Origin: an uncultured Anaerolineales bacterium
GTDB taxonomy: Bacteria > Chloroflexota > Anaerolineae > Aggregatilineales > Aggregatilineaceae
DNA: 55,039 nucleotides
Reading direction: 5' to 3'
NCBI GenBank assembly: GCA_937135955.1
Contig: CAKZOB010000057.1
Location: 1-55,039 of the forward strand
Positions within the stretch are counted from its first letter, which is position 1. The number at the start of each line of letters is the position of its first letter. Below the pieces are notes generated by a model that saw nothing but the letters and a program-made list of their open reading frames with translations, had not been told where the DNA came from and did no database searches. The translations under genes and the position numbers were made by a program. Below, piece by piece: positions 43,880 through 49,939 of the stretch.

Positions 43880-45127
43880 ATGACCGCTCTGCCCGCTTAT
43901 GATCTCGCGGCTGTGCGCCAGGCTTTTCCCATCGCCCAGCGCCTGATCTACGTCAATCACGCCAGCATCTCGCCCATGCCCCTGCCTGCTGTCCAGGCCA
44001 TGCAGGCCGCCGTCGCACGGCTGGGCGACGATCCCATGTCCTTCTACACCCCCCATTCTGGCTACGGTGATCTGTTCGCCACCTTCGCCCAGGAGATGGC
44101 CGCATTGATCAACGCTGCTTCACCTGACGAAATCGTCGGCGTCACGGCGACCTCCAACGGGCTGAACGCTGTCGCTCAGTCCATTGACTGGCAGGCTGGT
44201 GACAATATCGTGTTGGCCGATGTCGAATTCCCGTCCAACGTGTATCCCTGGATGGCGTTGCAGGCACGGGGTGTGGAGACGCGGCTGGTGCATACCCCCG
44301 ACGGCGGCGCATCGGTCGAGGCATTCGCGGAGCACGTGAACGCCCGCACCCGTCTGATCGCCGTCAGCGCCGTGCAATTCTTCACCGGTCACCGCGCCGA
44401 CCTGGCTGCCCTCGGCGCGTTCTGCCGCGAACGCGGCATCCTGTTCGCGGTAGATGCCATTCAGGCCGCCGGGCACATGCCGATCGACGTGCAGGCAACG
44501 GGCATTGACATCCTTGCCAGCGGCGGGCAGAAGTCATTGATGGGGCCGCCCGGTCAGGGCTTTCTCTATGTGCGGCGGACGGTCGCCGAGCGTCTGCGCC
44601 CCGCCGAGATCGGGCCGCTCTCAGTAGAAGACTGGCAGCACTGGCTGAAGTACGACCTGACCCCACGCCCGGGGGCGTTGCGCTTCGCCATGGGCACGAC
44701 CAATCTACCCGGCATGATCGCCCTCATCGAAAGCGTGCGCTTCCTGCGGGACATTGGGCTGGCGCATATTGACACCTGGACGCGCCATCTCTCACAGATC
44801 GCCATCGCCGAACTGCAGGCGCGCGGCTACCCTGTGATCACACCGTCCGATCCGGCGTCCCTGGGGCCAATCGTCACCTTCCGCGTGGGCAACTCCGCCG
44901 ATCCTGCCGCTGCCGAAGCACACGCCAGAGGGTTGCTGGCCCACCTGGCAGCGCACGGGGTGCGCGTCACCAAACACTGGGACGCCCAGGGTCTGCCGCA
45001 CTTGCGCATCTCAACCCATTGCTATAATACGGAAGACGAAGTGCGCCGGGTTTGCGCCCTTGTGGAGGACTACGATGAGCAGTCGCGTTCCCCAGCCGCC
45101 GGTTACCGGACAACTGCGCCGCACTGA
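43880..45127 (+). CDS. class V aminotransferase / cysteine desulfurase-like PLP enzyme
   Basis: The 415-residue protein belongs to the fold-type I class V group, which includes cysteine desulfurases, isopenicillin-N epimerase-like and kynureninase-like enzymes. The PLP-binding region reads FAVDAIQAAGHMPIDV, and the Schiff-base lysine is in SGGQKSLMGPPG (Lys218). No clear active cysteine loop of SufS or IscS type is seen, so desulfurase activity is doubtful. The frame is open from 43619, but ATG 43880 starts at the family's normal point. Its 3' end overlaps the next gene by 53 bases in another frame, so the two are probably translated from one message. The substrate is unknown. Confidence 0.85.
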   Translation: MTALPAYDLAAVRQAFPIAQRLIYVNHASISPMPLPAVQAMQAAVARLGDDPMSFYTPHSGYGDLFATFAQEMAALINAASPDEIVGVTATSNGLNAVAQSIDWQAGDNIVLADVEFPSNVYPWMALQARGVETRLVHTPDGGASVEAFAEHVNARTRLIAVSAVQFFTGHRADLAALGAFCRERGILFAVDAIQAAGHMPIDVQATGIDILASGGQKSLMGPPGQGFLYVRRTVAERLRPAEIGPLSVEDWQHWLKYDLTPRPGALRFAMGTTNLPGMIALIESVRFLRDIGLAHIDTWTRHLSQIAIAELQARGYPVITPSDPASLGPIVTFRVGNSADPAAAEAHARGLLAHLAAHGVRVTKHWDAQGLPHLRISTHCYNTEDEVRRVCALVEDYDEQSRSPAAGYRTTAPH

Positions 45128-46415
45128 ATGGGCACCGCCGCCCATCCGCTCGATCCAGGATACGGGGCTGAACATCGGCATCCTGTCCGACCTGGCCATC
45201 AAAATCCTGTACTTCGGCGGCTACCTGACTGGCAATCAGATCGCCGATATGATGCACCTGCCCTTCACCAACGTGGTGCAGATCGTCATGGAAGGGCTGA
45301 AGCGGGAGAAGTTCGTCGAGGTGCGCGGCGGCAGCGGCCTGGGTGCGGGTTCATTCGAATATGTGATCACGCTCAAAGGGATCGAGAAAGCGCACGAGGC
45401 CCTGGCCCGCACGCAATACGCCGGCCCCTGCCCTGTCACCCTGGAGCAGTACGTGGCGGCCATGCGCGCCCAGGCGACCGCCCGCCTGGAAGTGCACCGC
45501 GAGCACCTGGTCGAAGCGCTGAAGGGCCTCACCATCAGCGAAGAGATGCTGGGGCGCATCGGCCCCGCCGTCAACTCCGGCAAGGCTATTTTCATGTACG
45601 GCCCGCCCGGCAACGGCAAGACCACCATCGCGCAGCGCGTGGGCCGCATGATCCTGGGCAAGCCCATCTGGATACCCTATGCGGTAGATGTAGACGGGCA
45701 GGTCATCCGCGTCTTCGACAACATCAACCACGAAGTGATACCGGACAACGAGGAAGAGGAGCGCCGCGCTACAGCTACTGGCGAGCGTCGCGATGCCCGC
45801 TGGGTGCGCATCCGCCGTCCGGTGATCATGGTCGGTGGCGAACTGACGCTGGAGACGCTCGACCTGGTCTATGACCCCATCAACAAGTATTACGAAGCGC
45901 CCTATCAGATGAAAGCCAACGGGGGCATGTTCCTGATTGACGACTTCGGTCGGCAGCAGGTGCGCCCCCGCGATCTGCTCAACCGCTGGATCGTCCCGCT
46001 GGAAAGCCGCGTGGACTTCCTGACGCTCTCCACGGGGCGCAAGATCGAGATTCCTTTCAACGTGCTGATCGTCTTCAGCACCAACATGCCCCCCGCCGAC
46101 CTGGTGGATGAAGCTTTTCTGCGCCGTATCCCGCACAAGATCGAGGTGGGTGACCCCACCTTCGAGCAATTCCGCGACATCTTCAAGCGCGTGTGCGAGG
46201 CGCGCCGCGTGCCCTACGACGAAAAGGGCCTGGCCTATCTGCTGCAGGAGTGGTATATCAAGCAGAACCGCAAGCTACGCGCCGTGCACCCGCGCGACAT
46301 CATCGAGCAGATCATAGACATTTCGCGCTACCAGAACACGCCGCCCATGCTCACCAAAGAGCTGCTCGACCGCGCGGCTTCCGCCTACTTCGTAGACCTG
46401 AGCGCTGAATACTGA
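45075..46415 (+). CDS. AAA+ ATPase with N-terminal winged-helix-like region
   Basis: The 446-residue protein starts with a domain of about 150 residues that looks like a winged helix (LTGNQIADMMHLPFTNVVQ ... YVITLKGIEKA). An AAA+ domain follows, with Walker A MYGPPGNGKTT, Walker B GMFLIDDFG, sensor 1 VFSTNMPP and an arginine-finger segment FLRRIPHK. A lid domain ends the protein. The type is a conserved, poorly characterised bacterial ATPase, near MoxR in style. ATG 45075 is chosen because GGAGGA lies just upstream, which places the start inside the aminotransferase gene. It is followed 65 bases later by nnr, with a GC-rich stem (CCCGCC/GGGCGGG) between. Confidence 0.82.
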   Translation: MSSRVPQPPVTGQLRRTEWAPPPIRSIQDTGLNIGILSDLAIKILYFGGYLTGNQIADMMHLPFTNVVQIVMEGLKREKFVEVRGGSGLGAGSFEYVITLKGIEKAHEALARTQYAGPCPVTLEQYVAAMRAQATARLEVHREHLVEALKGLTISEEMLGRIGPAVNSGKAIFMYGPPGNGKTTIAQRVGRMILGKPIWIPYAVDVDGQVIRVFDNINHEVIPDNEEEERRATATGERRDARWVRIRRPVIMVGGELTLETLDLVYDPINKYYEAPYQMKANGGMFLIDDFGRQQVRPRDLLNRWIVPLESRVDFLTLSTGRKIEIPFNVLIVFSTNMPPADLVDEAFLRRIPHKIEVGDPTFEQFRDIFKRVCEARRVPYDEKGLAYLLQEWYIKQNRKLRAVHPRDIIEQIIDISRYQNTPPMLTKELLDRAASAYFVDLSAEY

Positions 46416-46480: not shown

Positions 46481-48190
46481 ATGCCGAAGATCGTCACCAC
46501 CGAACAGATGCGCGCCATCGAGCGCGCCGCCGACGCCAAAGGACACACCTACGCCGAGATGATGGAGCGCGCCGGACGCGCTGTCGCCGAGCGGGTCAAG
46601 CAATTGCTGGCGGGGATCGAGCAGCCCCGCGTCGCGGTGATTGTCGGGCCGGGCAACAACGGCGGCGACGGCCTGGTAGCTGCGCGCATCCTGGCCCAGG
46701 AAGTGGCAGGCGCTTCAGTGGGCGCGTTCCTGCTCAAAGAGCGCGGCGACGATGATGCGGTCTTCGTCGCCGCGCGCGAGGCGGGCGTTTTCATCGCCGA
46801 TGCTGCCAATGACAAGGCTGCCGGATATCGGGTGTTGCAGAACCTGGTCGCCAATGCCGACGTGCTCATTGACGCGCTCTTTGGCACTAGCCTGCGCCTG
46901 CCGATCAAAGGGGACGCGTCCAAAGTGTTGCAGGCCACGCACAAGGCGATCGCCCTGCGCCGCGCCGACCGCCCCGCGCCGCTCCTCATCACACCCGCGC
47001 ATCTTGCTGACAGGCCGCGCGACGAAGGCCCGATCATCATCGCCGTAGACTGCCCCAGCGGGCTGGACTGCGACACTGGCGAGCTGGACGCCAACGCCCT
47101 GCACGCTCACGAGACGATCACTTTCGCCGCGGCCAAGCCCGGTCTGCTGACCTTCCCTGGCGCAGAGGCTGTCGGCACGCTGCACGTGGCCGACATCGGT
47201 CTGCCGCCCCGCCTGCCCGAATTGGAGGAGGTCACCCTGACGCTGGTGGACGCTGCGGAAGTGCGGGCACGCCTGCCGCGGCGTCCGCTGGACAGCCACA
47301 AAGGCACTTTCGGCAAGGCGATGGTCGTGGCAGGCAGCCTGAACTACACCGGCGCGGCCTACCTGGCGGCGGCGGCGGCCTATCGCGTCGGCGCGGGCCT
47401 GGTGACCGTCGGTGCGCCACAGATCATCGTGCCGACGTTGGCCGGTATGCTGCCCGAAGCCACCTGGTTGCTGCTGCCGCACGACCTGGGCGTGATCAAC
47501 GACGCTGCCGTCAAGGTGCTGCGCGACGAACTAGAGGGCTATACCGCCCTGTTGCTCGGCCCTGGCTTTGGCCGCGAAGAGGTGACCGGTGAATTCTTGC
47601 GCGAACTGCTGCGTCCGGAGGAGGAAATCCGCCACTCACGGGCTATCGGTTTCGTCCCCACGGAACCGCAACTGAACGCACCGCCTCCCCCCACTCCCCT
47701 TCCGCCGCTGGTGATAGACGCCGACGGCCTGAACCTGCTGGCGGAGATGGACGACTGGCCGCGCCTGATCCCGCCCGGCACCATCCTCACGCCGCACCCC
47801 GGCGAATTCGCGCGGTTGGCTCGCCTGGAGCGCGATCAGGTGCAGGCGAATCGGCTGGCGCTCGCCCAGGCCAAAGCCGCCGAATGGAACTGCGTGCTTG
47901 TGCTGAAGGGCGCGTTCACCGTGATCGCCGCCCCTGATGGACGCACAGCAGTCGAACCGTTTGCCACCCCCGCTTTGGCCAGCGCCGGCACAGGCGACGT
48001 GCTGGCGGGGGCAATTGTCGGGCTGCTGGCACAGGGGTTGGAACCATTCGATGCGGCGCTGGCCGGAGCCTACCTGCACGGGCTGGCCGGTGTGCTCGCC
48101 GCGGAGCTTTGGGACACGACGGCCAGCGTCACCGCCGGAGACGTGTTGGAACTGCTGCCGGAAGCGGTAGCGCTAGCCGAACGAGCCTGA
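46481..48190 (+). CDS. nnr: bifunctional NAD(P)HX epimerase/dehydratase
   Basis: This 569-residue enzyme repairs hydrated NADH and NADPH. The N-terminal half is the YjeF_N epimerase (MRAIERAAD, GPGNNGGDGLVAARIL, DCPSGLDCDTGE). The C-terminal half is the ADP/ATP-dependent dehydratase of the ribokinase fold (SHKGTFGKAMVVAGS, VIDADGLNLL, TPHPGEFARL, SAGTGDVLAGAI). A loop of about 25 residues rich in Pro (QLNAPPPPTPLPP) is inserted before the DADGLN motif. Both active sites look whole. ATG 46481 is preceded by GAGGG. It stands alone after the AAA+ gene and converges on the RRM gene, with a small hairpin in the 52-base gap. Confidence 0.95.
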   Translation: MPKIVTTEQMRAIERAADAKGHTYAEMMERAGRAVAERVKQLLAGIEQPRVAVIVGPGNNGGDGLVAARILAQEVAGASVGAFLLKERGDDDAVFVAAREAGVFIADAANDKAAGYRVLQNLVANADVLIDALFGTSLRLPIKGDASKVLQATHKAIALRRADRPAPLLITPAHLADRPRDEGPIIIAVDCPSGLDCDTGELDANALHAHETITFAAAKPGLLTFPGAEAVGTLHVADIGLPPRLPELEEVTLTLVDAAEVRARLPRRPLDSHKGTFGKAMVVAGSLNYTGAAYLAAAAAYRVGAGLVTVGAPQIIVPTLAGMLPEATWLLLPHDLGVINDAAVKVLRDELEGYTALLLGPGFGREEVTGEFLRELLRPEEEIRHSRAIGFVPTEPQLNAPPPPTPLPPLVIDADGLNLLAEMDDWPRLIPPGTILTPHPGEFARLARLERDQVQANRLALAQAKAAEWNCVLVLKGAFTVIAAPDGRTAVEPFATPALASAGTGDVLAGAIVGLLAQGLEPFDAALAGAYLHGLAGVLAAELWDTTASVTAGDVLELLPEAVALAERA

Positions 48191-48242
48191 TCGCGCGCCT
48201 CTAGCCGCGCTGAGTCTCAACTCAGGGCTTCGCTACGGTCTC

Positions 48243-48788
48243 CTAATCACCGCCGACGGGGAGCTTACCCTTGCGGTTGTAGACGATGCGGCGCGCCTCC
48301 GGCGGCATGCGAAAACGCGCCAGGTAGAAGAATATCCCGCCTTTGGTGCGGCGCGTACCGTCCGCCGTGAACATCCCACCCTGGGCGTCGATCGCCAGCG
48401 CTTCCTCAGCCAGCGCCATGGCGAAGCGTCCGCCACACATATACACGATCGCTTCGATCTGCCGCAGCGGTTTCGCTTCGGTTTCCTCCAGGAGGGCAGC
48501 GATCTCCTGGACGGTCTTGCGCTGACGCGGCGTTATATCCTTATCGAGGTCAGGCAGGTAGTAGCTCACATACAGCCGCTTTCCGGCCAGTTCAGTCCCA
48601 TTGAGAGCGTTCAGCGCGTGCGTCGCCTGCTTCTCCGTGGCCATTTCCACCACAGCGACCGGCTGCTGCACATGTGGTTCCGTCGAAATCGTCACCGCCG
48701 TCACCTCGCCGTGCGCCGCAAACAGCGCCCGCAGGTCGTCGGCGGTGATCGTTTCATCCAGATTGGCCACGAACAACGCAATTGCCAT
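48243..48788 (-). CDS. RRM protein with a PHAX-like RNA-binding C-terminal domain
   Basis: The 181-residue protein has an RNA-recognition motif (residues 1-78). RNP2 reads LFVANL; the RNP1 strand reads PVAVVEM and lacks the usual aromatic pair. Residues 106-173 resemble the RNA-binding domain of PHAX, the eukaryotic snRNA/snoRNA export adaptor. The match is a helix with IVYMCGG, then AIDAQGGMF, DGTRRTKGGIFFYLAR and a basic end. The pattern GG(L/M)F-x-x-(D/N)G-(S/T)-RR-(T)-x-GG(V/I)F is the mark of that domain. It is the last gene of a four-gene leftward operon. Its ATG overlaps the upstream stop (TGATG); the longer open frame to 48836 overlaps that gene. It may bind structured or single-stranded small RNA. 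This is inference from sequence pattern. Confidence 0.82.
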   Translation of the reverse strand: MAIALFVANLDETITADDLRALFAAHGEVTAVTISTEPHVQQPVAVVEMATEKQATHALNALNGTELAGKRLYVSYYLPDLDKDITPRQRKTVQEIAALLEETEAKPLRQIEAIVYMCGGRFAMALAEEALAIDAQGGMFTADGTRRTKGGIFFYLARFRMPPEARRIVYNRKGKLPVGGD

Positions 48789-49108
48789 CAGTGCCTTCCC
48801 TCGTCGTGTTCCGGGCTTTGCCAGACTGTCCGCCATCGTCGCGCGGCAATCGCCCGCCCCTCAGCCAATGCCTCTTCGACCGATTCGCCCCGCACCCGCT
48901 CCAGTTGCTGCTCGACCTGTTCCAGCGGACGGCGGACGGCCTCGCCCACCCGTCGCCGGATGATCAGGCCGCGCTGCACGACTGCTTCGCGCAGAAAGTC
49001 TGTACCGCGCGGGGCCAGCCACGCCACCGCCGGAATGCTGATGGCCAGTCCTACGACCAGCCCGGCGAGGAATTCCACTGTCCCTTCGGTGCGCTCCTGC
49101 TCTGCCAT
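48788..49108 (-). CDS. small membrane protein, YtxH-like
   Basis: The 106-residue protein has one membrane helix near the N-terminus (EFLAGLVVGLAISIPAVAWL). A charged, helical and partly coiled-coil tail with many Arg/Glu follows, the build of YtxH-type stress proteins (PF12732 type). It lies between a two-helix membrane protein gene (three-base gap) and the RRM gene (one-base overlap), so it is in the same operon. Function is unknown. A membrane tether for the neighbouring products is possible. Confidence 0.7.
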   Translation of the reverse strand: MAEQERTEGTVEFLAGLVVGLAISIPAVAWLAPRGTDFLREAVVQRGLIIRRRVGEAVRRPLEQVEQQLERVRGESVEEALAEGRAIAARRWRTVWQSPEHDEGRH

Positions 49109-49111
49109 GCG

Positions 49112-49639
49112 CTAGCCCTCCTTGGCTGGACGAGCACCAGCGCGTCCCTGCCGCACCGACCGGCGCAGCCGCAACAGTTCGCGCACCACCCCGCCGACGC
49201 CTGCCATCAGCGCGCTAGCCTTGATCACCGGCTCGACCAGGTTCTGGCTCATGAACTGCGCCGTCCCACGCACGGTGGTGACTGTCTCATTGGCGTTATC
49301 CACGATCGGTTGCAGTTCGTTTTGCAGCAGGTTGACCAGCGCGGCCAGTTGCAGGATGAGCACGATCAGGGCGATGCCCATCAACATGCCCTCCATAGCC
49401 AGCACGATGATGAACAGGTCGCGGATAATACCTACCCAGCTTGCCGCGTCATCGGGATCGGCGATGATGGCGACCGCTAGCGCCCCCACCAGCCCGATGA
49501 TGAAGACGGCCACGATCGCTGCACCGCCCACCAGCGGCCAGAAATACCAGGCACGCCCCTTCTTCTGTGGCGGCGCTTCGCCCTGCGGCGCGGCCAGTTG
49601 CGCCGCGCTTTGACCTGGCTTGTTCGCTTGTTCCGGCAT
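49112..49639 (-). CDS. membrane protein of unknown function with amphipathic tail
   Basis: The 175-residue protein has a polar, Gln/Pro-rich N-terminus and two membrane helices (FWPLVGGAAIVAVFIIGLVGALAV, and a second near GMLMGIALIVLILQL). The tail of about 75 residues is helical, with LLQNELQPIVDNANETV, reminiscent of DUF948-like membrane proteins, and ends in a basic stretch. ATG 49639 is chosen since GAGGAG lies about nine bases before it; the frame is open to 49684. It follows the 83-residue membrane protein gene by 48 bases and precedes the YtxH-like gene by three. Function is not recognised. Confidence 0.65.
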   Translation of the reverse strand: MPEQANKPGQSAAQLAAPQGEAPPQKKGRAWYFWPLVGGAAIVAVFIIGLVGALAVAIIADPDDAASWVGIIRDLFIIVLAMEGMLMGIALIVLILQLAALVNLLQNELQPIVDNANETVTTVRGTAQFMSQNLVEPVIKASALMAGVGGVVRELLRLRRSVRQGRAGARPAKEG

Positions 49640-49687: not shown

Positions 49688-49939
49688 CTAGCGCGTGAGC
49701 ACACGCGCCACCACCAGTGCCAGCCAGGCTCCCACTGTCGCCGACAGCATGTGCAAGGGGCCAAGGTCCAGCAGTGTCACGCCCAACGCCTCGCCAGCGC
49801 TGTGCCCCAGCGCGAATCCCAGCCATGACGCCAGCAAGAACAACGCCAACCGCCGCGCGTCCCCTCCGCTGACCAGGTGAAACGCAGCCCCGTAGAGCGT
49901 GGCCACAATGACGCTGAACACAAACGACGGGCTTGGCAT
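49688..49939 (-). CDS. small multi-helix membrane protein
   Basis: The 83-residue protein has about three hydrophobic segments (FVFSVIVATLYGAAFHLV, LALFLLASWLGFALGHSAG, MLSATVGAWLALVVARVL). ATG 49939 has AAGGTG seven bases upstream and gives a start right before the first helix; the frame is open to 49990. It heads the four-gene leftward operon ending with the RRM gene. No family is recognised. Confidence 0.6.
   Translation of the reverse strand: MPSPSFVFSVIVATLYGAAFHLVSGGDARRLALFLLASWLGFALGHSAGEALGVTLLDLGPLHMLSATVGAWLALVVARVLTR

Follow-up and report, generated by a model that had tools for sequence, protein, structure and literature searches.

The window, the whole 55,039-nucleotide stretch of DNA from an uncultured Chloroflexota bacterium analyzed here, carries on its minus strand a gene for a 181-residue protein in which an RRM is followed by a PHAX-type RNA-binding domain. 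Upstream, also on the minus strand and separated by short gaps, are three ORFs for membrane proteins; a convergent gene lies on the other side. The features are listed below; hydrophobic stretches were called by a simple Kyte-Doolittle scan (threshold of 1.5).

46481..48190, plus strand: NAD(P)H-hydrate epimerase/dehydratase gene; convergent, outside the unit, a useful synteny marker
48243..48788, minus strand: RRM-PHAX protein gene, 181 amino acids plus stop (ORF, Pfam, dN/dS, AF2 model)
48273..48512, minus strand: PHAX RNA-binding domain (PF10258), residues 93 to 172; Pfam E 3.2e-14, 53.1 bits, cut-off 25
48315..48362, minus strand: PHAX signature DGTRRTKGGIFFYLAR, residues 143 to 158; human counterpart NGSRRRTPGGVF, from the alignment to human
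48573..48776, minus strand: RRM (RRM_1, PF00076), residues 5 to 72; Pfam E 4.9e-15, 55.6 bits, cut-off 20.7
48786..48790, minus strand: TGATG, in which the upstream stop and the RRM-PHAX start overlap, preceded by GGAAGG a few bases earlier
48788..49108, minus strand: small membrane protein, 106 amino acids; one hydrophobic stretch; no Pfam match at E 1
49112..49639, minus strand: membrane protein, 175 amino acids from the ATG at 49639 (190 from 49684); three hydrophobic stretches, one marginal
49688..49939, minus strand: small membrane protein, 83 amino acids; three hydrophobic stretches, one marginal; no Pfam match at E 1

The RRM-PHAX frame opens with the ATG at 48788 and stops at 48243 to 48245, as an earlier note made from the sequence alone had placed it. 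We preferred this start to an in-frame ATG at 48836 because of the TGATG overlap behind GGAAGG. The overlap also suggests translational coupling with the upstream gene, and the 106-residue membrane gene and RRM-PHAX probably share a transcript. Between the convergent genes, an inverted repeat (CTGAGT-CTCA-ACTCAG, 48210 to 48225) may be a shared terminator. An AAA-type ATPase with borderline Pfam matches only (45060 to 46412) adjoins the hydrate dehydratase gene.

An RRM joined to a PHAX-type domain

The PF10258 match spans model positions 2 to 81 of 84. In a profile search of the window's own genome (93 contigs), this model scored the gene at 54.3 bits, and the single RRM_1 match and single PF10258 match in that genome both fall in it; none of 14 control genomes had a PF10258 match. 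The earlier note had assigned residues 106 to 173 to PHAX; the domain is indeed there but starts about 13 residues earlier. GGMF occupies residues 137 to 140. Within the signature DGTRRTKGGIFFYLAR, one Arg of the usual RRR is missing, an Arg that is present in 31 of 35 bacterial rows, and the domain is nearly neutral (net charge of +1). R147, G150, and G151 are invariant in all 35 bacterial PHAX domains, as are L100, E102, and G119.

Searches of the PDB agreed with this assignment. The single protein retrieved PHAX (2xc7; phmmer E 1.3e-4) and a Cryptosporidium protein (2w4s; E 2.4e-4), and a profile of the 35 bacterial domains matched human PHAX (2xc7; E 1.5e-17), 8pnt (E 1.4e-16), and 2w4s (E 5.6e-14). 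The three other rows of the profile search were an acetate kinase (E 0.094) and two designed repeat proteins, whose values (E 3.7e-9 and 6e-7) are sums over weak repeats in which no single stretch passes.

Structure prediction, which the earlier note had proposed for comparison with PHAX, pointed the same way. An AF2 model of both domains from a 24-row alignment (mean pLDDT of 94.1; pTM of 0.89) suggests that they hold a defined mutual arrangement, and the order of strands and helices in its RRM half is beta-alpha-beta-beta-alpha-beta, as in RRM_1. RRM proteins filled the top rows of a Foldseek search with this model, and likewise of a viral-structure search; the PHAX half was therefore modeled alone, from an alignment of bacterial rows without templates (mean pLDDT of 95.8). 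Among 350,542 chains, Foldseek then placed 2w4s and 2xc7 at ranks 1 to 3 (E 2.6e-3 to 1.2e-2), and beyond these two no row fell below E 1. VIA-align superposed the model on 2w4s (Z 12.0; rmsd 1.2; 76 residues aligned; 25% identity) and on 2xc7 (Z 9.0; rmsd 2.9; 82 aligned), with the next row at Z 5.1; for helical folds the program warns below about Z 13, and the profile sequence match carries the decision. With profile and predicted fold in agreement over the region where the earlier note had looked for a match (residues 100 to 175), we regard a PHAX-type RNA-binding domain in this protein as established. The central claim of that note, an RRM fused to a true PHAX-type domain in a bacterium, is borne out by Pfam, phmmer, profile, and fold.

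In the RRM half, the RNP2-like stretch LFVANL retains F6, and an aromatic (F or Y) is kept at this position in 24 of 24 rows. RNA-binding RRMs usually have aromatics at two RNP1 positions; in the RNP1-like stretch of the window protein (PVAVVEM), which contains no aromatic, these are V44 and V46. Residues 1 to 80 are acidic (net charge of -6), acidity and the two RNP1 valines being features of the RRM throughout this subclade. The best NCBIfam match, Rbp_regulator (NF058537), scored 44.3 bits, below its 100-bit cut-off. Over the whole gene, dN/dS between the window and five orthologs was 0.16 to 0.25 (simple Nei-Gojobori); the gene is under purifying selection. The PHAX half gave lower values than the RRM half in all four computable comparisons, the fifth (L006) being saturated. 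Such an RRM might no longer bind RNA and might instead serve as a dimerization or docking face, making the protein a PHAX-domain binder with an adaptor. The acidic character, the missing RNP1 aromatics, and the faster evolution of the RRM half all favor this reading; nevertheless, the RNP2 aromatic persists in every row and three relatives (L082, L083, and L094) have aromatics at both RNP1 positions, and we consider it distinctly unlikely.

Distribution and architectures

Bacterial homologs, which the earlier note had proposed to list, were found both within the window's order and elsewhere in the phylum. PF10258 matched 86 times in 68 of 154 genomes of the window's order, leaving 86 genomes without a PHAX match, and in 22 of 400 genomes of a phylum sample (G000 and G240 from the window's order, 20 from elsewhere). 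An RRM-PHAX profile matched 97 of the 154 genomes, many by the RRM or PHAX part alone; among the matches listed, at least 33 in at least 29 genomes of the order span both parts. The close relatives (L002 to L007) are Chloroflexota MAGs. RRM-PHAX is a real family with relatives in its order and no chance resemblance. Outside the order, our own RRM profile detected an RRM beside PHAX in 0 of 28 loci; these are the loci examined from the phylum sample (L008 to L036, 29 in all) after setting aside L020, which is from the order, and one more match had no locus. That PHAX goes without a detected RRM at all 28 is a further point for a docking role of the RRM.

Several architectures recur. RRM-PHAX with a C-terminal extension was found in five loci (L082 to L085 and L094); others are PHAX followed by a C-terminal domain (PHAX-C) and PHAX alone. 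A 612-residue protein (L096:2331-4166) has four RRM-like stretches by our own profile, then PHAX, then an unnamed C-terminal domain, and another (L034:1165-2232) has a cold-shock domain (Pfam E 1.5e-9), then PHAX, then the same unnamed C-terminal domain. The order of cold-shock domain then PHAX was seen by eye only in L029, L030, and L032; in L035:478-2322, three similar repeats precede PHAX by eye, with no Pfam cold-shock domain. Bacterial PHAX domains are thus recurrently joined to nucleic-acid-binding partners, namely RRMs, RRM-like stretches, and a cold-shock domain. The C-terminal domain of PHAX-C also occurs as a separate 114-residue protein directly after a PHAX-C gene (L104:6631-6972). 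By eye this domain may have an OB fold; a PDB profile search lent that no support, returning designed TIM barrels and weak rows only, and a search for the domain in the window's own genome, run without a positive control, gave no match.

In a tree of 65 PHAX domains (88 columns), RRM-PHAX proteins formed a clade of 18 rows with an SH-aLRT of 96. The two eukaryotic rows grouped with bacterial PHAX-C rows, a placement that lacked strong support. Group labels in the tree follow a length rule, hence the RRM-PHAX label of L081 and L094; the L094 row is 42% filled, probably a stray second match, and is to be ignored.

Carriage as phage or plasmid cargo was rejected: the L008 PHAX domain matched no phage, and single queries matched no viral contig. 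Plasmids gave no match to a 34-residue piece of the window protein and one match to the L008 PHAX domain, on pHAU01 of Herpetosiphon aurantiacus. The gene there (Haur_5073, L124:5971-6966) is annotated as hypothetical; CRISPR-associated genes lie about 2 to 3 kb away and an abortive-infection gene at some 5 kb.

The upstream membrane genes and other neighbors

The earlier note had described an operon of RRM-PHAX with three membrane proteins. The same-strand cluster and the hydrophobic stretches are there, and the 175/190-residue protein adds a weak Pfam resemblance to DUF948, below cut-off; what did not hold is a general tie. In tblastn searches of 44 locus records (including the duplicates L006 = L068 and L007 = L069), only L002, L003, L004, L005, L006/L068, and L073 had the trio near RRM-PHAX, although several loci without it are contigs of 3.5 to 4 kb, past whose ends it could lie. 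Counting the window, trio and RRM-PHAX occur together in seven genomes, all of the window's family (seven of the 12 that bear PHAX there). The TGATG overlap is present in the window and L002; gaps of 23, 109, 24, 45, and 77 bases take its place in L003, L004, L005, L006, and L073, respectively. Across the 18 genomes of the family, PHAX matched 12 and the 190-residue membrane protein 15. Four genomes (G400, G401, G404, and G411) have the latter without PHAX, G409 has PHAX without it, and in the fragmented assemblies G403, G406, G408, and G412 the two lie on different contigs.

These observations bear on the possibility that the RNA binder and the three membrane proteins act together to hold chosen mRNAs at the membrane, as discussed for cyanobacterial RRM proteins. 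Conservation of the same-strand cluster in seven family genomes, apparent coupling through TGATG in the window and L002, and the existence of papers on cyanobacterial RRM proteins and on thylakoid mRNA localization speak for it. The loss of the overlap in five relatives, the failure to find the trio at the other loci searched (some on short contigs), and the separate occurrence of the 190-residue protein and PHAX speak against it, and we hold it to be very doubtful. As a general explanation, a membrane link was rejected on the distribution of the trio, the variable gaps, and unrelated neighbors elsewhere. The membrane tie is a local arrangement, and the RNA-handling system tied to membrane genes that the earlier note had envisaged is not borne out by a trio confined to seven genomes of one family, with the 190-residue protein present in four without PHAX.

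Gene neighbors of the homologs were also named for listing in the earlier note. Ten neighbors of PHAX genes elsewhere were scanned with Pfam; two had no family, and the names of the other eight are those of enzymes of metabolism, maturation factors, and similar proteins (carboxyl transferase, methyltransferase, acyl-CoA dehydrogenase, UbiA, HypD, phosphoribosyltransferase, AMMECR1, and molybdopterin oxidase). A fixed operon partner was likewise rejected, with no widely shared neighbor among 41 records including the window (largest non-PHAX clusters of 6, 5, and 4 genes). The genes in these records were called with a crude composition-based finder that missed two of the three window membrane ORFs, and absences were therefore rechecked by tblastn for the membrane trio only. 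A UbiA-family prenyltransferase adjoins a PHAX-C gene in three genera (L090:6332-7303, identified by Pfam, with cluster-mates L091:4913-5881 and L092:6465-7367), and a carboxyl transferase/methyltransferase pair lies beside PHAX in L079, with cluster-mates in L080.

A housekeeping role would fit this lack of a fixed neighbor. In one such role, the PHAX domain would bind rRNA or tRNA precursors and aid their maturation, a closer parallel to the small-RNA cargo of eukaryotic PHAX, which serves snRNA and snoRNA transport (excerpt of PMC5670239). However, only 68 of the order's 154 genomes have PHAX, unlike a core maturation factor, and none of the ten scanned neighbors has a Pfam name that points to rRNA or tRNA processing. 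We judge this reading rather unlikely.

Proposed function

The analysis shows that the protein has both domains, what they are homologous to, and how they are conserved and distributed; RNA binding by the protein, its targets, and its role are inferred. Our preferred reading is a two-domain general RNA chaperone or posttranscriptional regulator acting on small RNAs, mRNAs, or both, for which we put the chances at about even. In this proposal, a single chain would present the N-terminal RRM and the C-terminal helical PHAX-type domain in the predicted arrangement. By analogy to its eukaryotic relative, the PHAX half would most likely grip single-stranded RNA through the face around R-T-x-G-G-I/V-F-F; the title of 2xc7 names a complex of the PHAX RNA-binding domain with ssRNA, and this domain is reported to take a defined fold only on RNA (excerpt of PMC5670239). 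The RRM would give a weaker or noncanonical contact or a protein-binding face. Because the RRM is acidic with V44 and V46 in RNP1 and R147, G150, and G151 of PHAX are invariant, most of the binding may fall to the PHAX half, with the RRM helping or docking. Elsewhere, the proposed job falls to Hfq, ProQ, or single-RRM proteins like RbpB; RbpB of Bacteroides demonstrates that an RRM-1 protein can act as a global RNA binder (excerpt of PMC11697453).

We take chaperone or regulator to be the likeliest job because neither Hfq nor ProQ was detected in any of the 16 chosen PHAX-bearing genomes (5 of 14 and 1 of 14 controls positive, respectively) and CsrA was not detected in the one genome searched, the window's own (3 of 14 controls positive). 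For a role like theirs, the absence of Hfq and ProQ is only circumstantial. The window's own genome has two above-cut-off matches to the KhpA/KhpB KH family, and such proteins could fill the chaperone role instead. Also against a chaperone are the acidic RRM without RNP1 aromatics, the PHAX domain with its net charge of +1 and one Arg too few, the lack of a fixed gene partner, and an Rfam search of the window that returned two tRNAs and no other RNA. Furthermore, the domain is patchy, with no PHAX match in 86 of the order's 154 genomes, so it is not a chaperone that is universally required there.

Novelty and relation to known systems

Among the matches listed, no paper on bacterial PHAX domains was found in the open-access literature, and the papers found by the domain's names all concern eukaryotes, judging from titles and the beginnings of abstracts. 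The earlier note's word "undescribed" stands within those matches; the Pfam model itself picks these proteins up, so they may already carry the label in automatic annotation. RRM-PHAX is a real combination, apparently undescribed, and belongs to a sizable bacterial branch of a domain family that is already known. In a broader reading, which we regard as rather improbable, RNA chaperones built on the PHAX domain, either by itself or combined with RRM, cold-shock, or further domains, would form an unrecognized class in Chloroflexota that takes the place of Hfq and ProQ, and the eukaryotic snRNA export adaptor would owe its RNA-binding core to this bacterial family. If so, an early eukaryote would have recruited a bacterial RNA chaperone domain for nuclear export. 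With a diverse bacterial set that has the PHAX signature and fold, the origin of the domain can be approached by tests, and the small bacterial proteins are material for studying its RNA binding. They also provide a concrete candidate for posttranscriptional control in Chloroflexota genomes that gave no match to Hfq or ProQ (16 chosen genomes) or to CsrA (one genome).

Both kinds of domain in the window protein are known chiefly from eukaryotes, where PHAX is described as a factor exporting small RNAs from the nucleus. The window protein shares with eukaryotic PHAX a sequence family, the signature R-R-T-x-G-G-V/I-F, and a helical fold. Human PHAX, by contrast, is a largely disordered protein of 394 amino acids that carries a phosphorylation cluster as well as parts binding ARS2, CBC, and CRM1 (excerpt of PMC12350170), whereas in the window protein the domain follows an RRM within 181 residues. 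The export-adaptor parts (CBC helix, NES/CRM1 contacts, and phosphorylation cluster) were not encountered there, since only the RRM and a short linker precede the RNA-binding domain. The best structural match, the PHAX-type domain of Cryptosporidium parvum (2w4s; Z 12.0), differs in its setting, which the PDB molecule name gives as an ankyrin-repeat protein. Rbp of cyanobacteria and RbpB of Bacteroides have a bacterial RRM, as does the window protein; the excerpt of PMC9333190 describes the cyanobacterial proteins as having a single RRM, to which a C-terminal region may be added, and mentions no PHAX domain. Hfq and ProQ belong to families different from RRM-PHAX, and their likeness to it lies in the proposed role.
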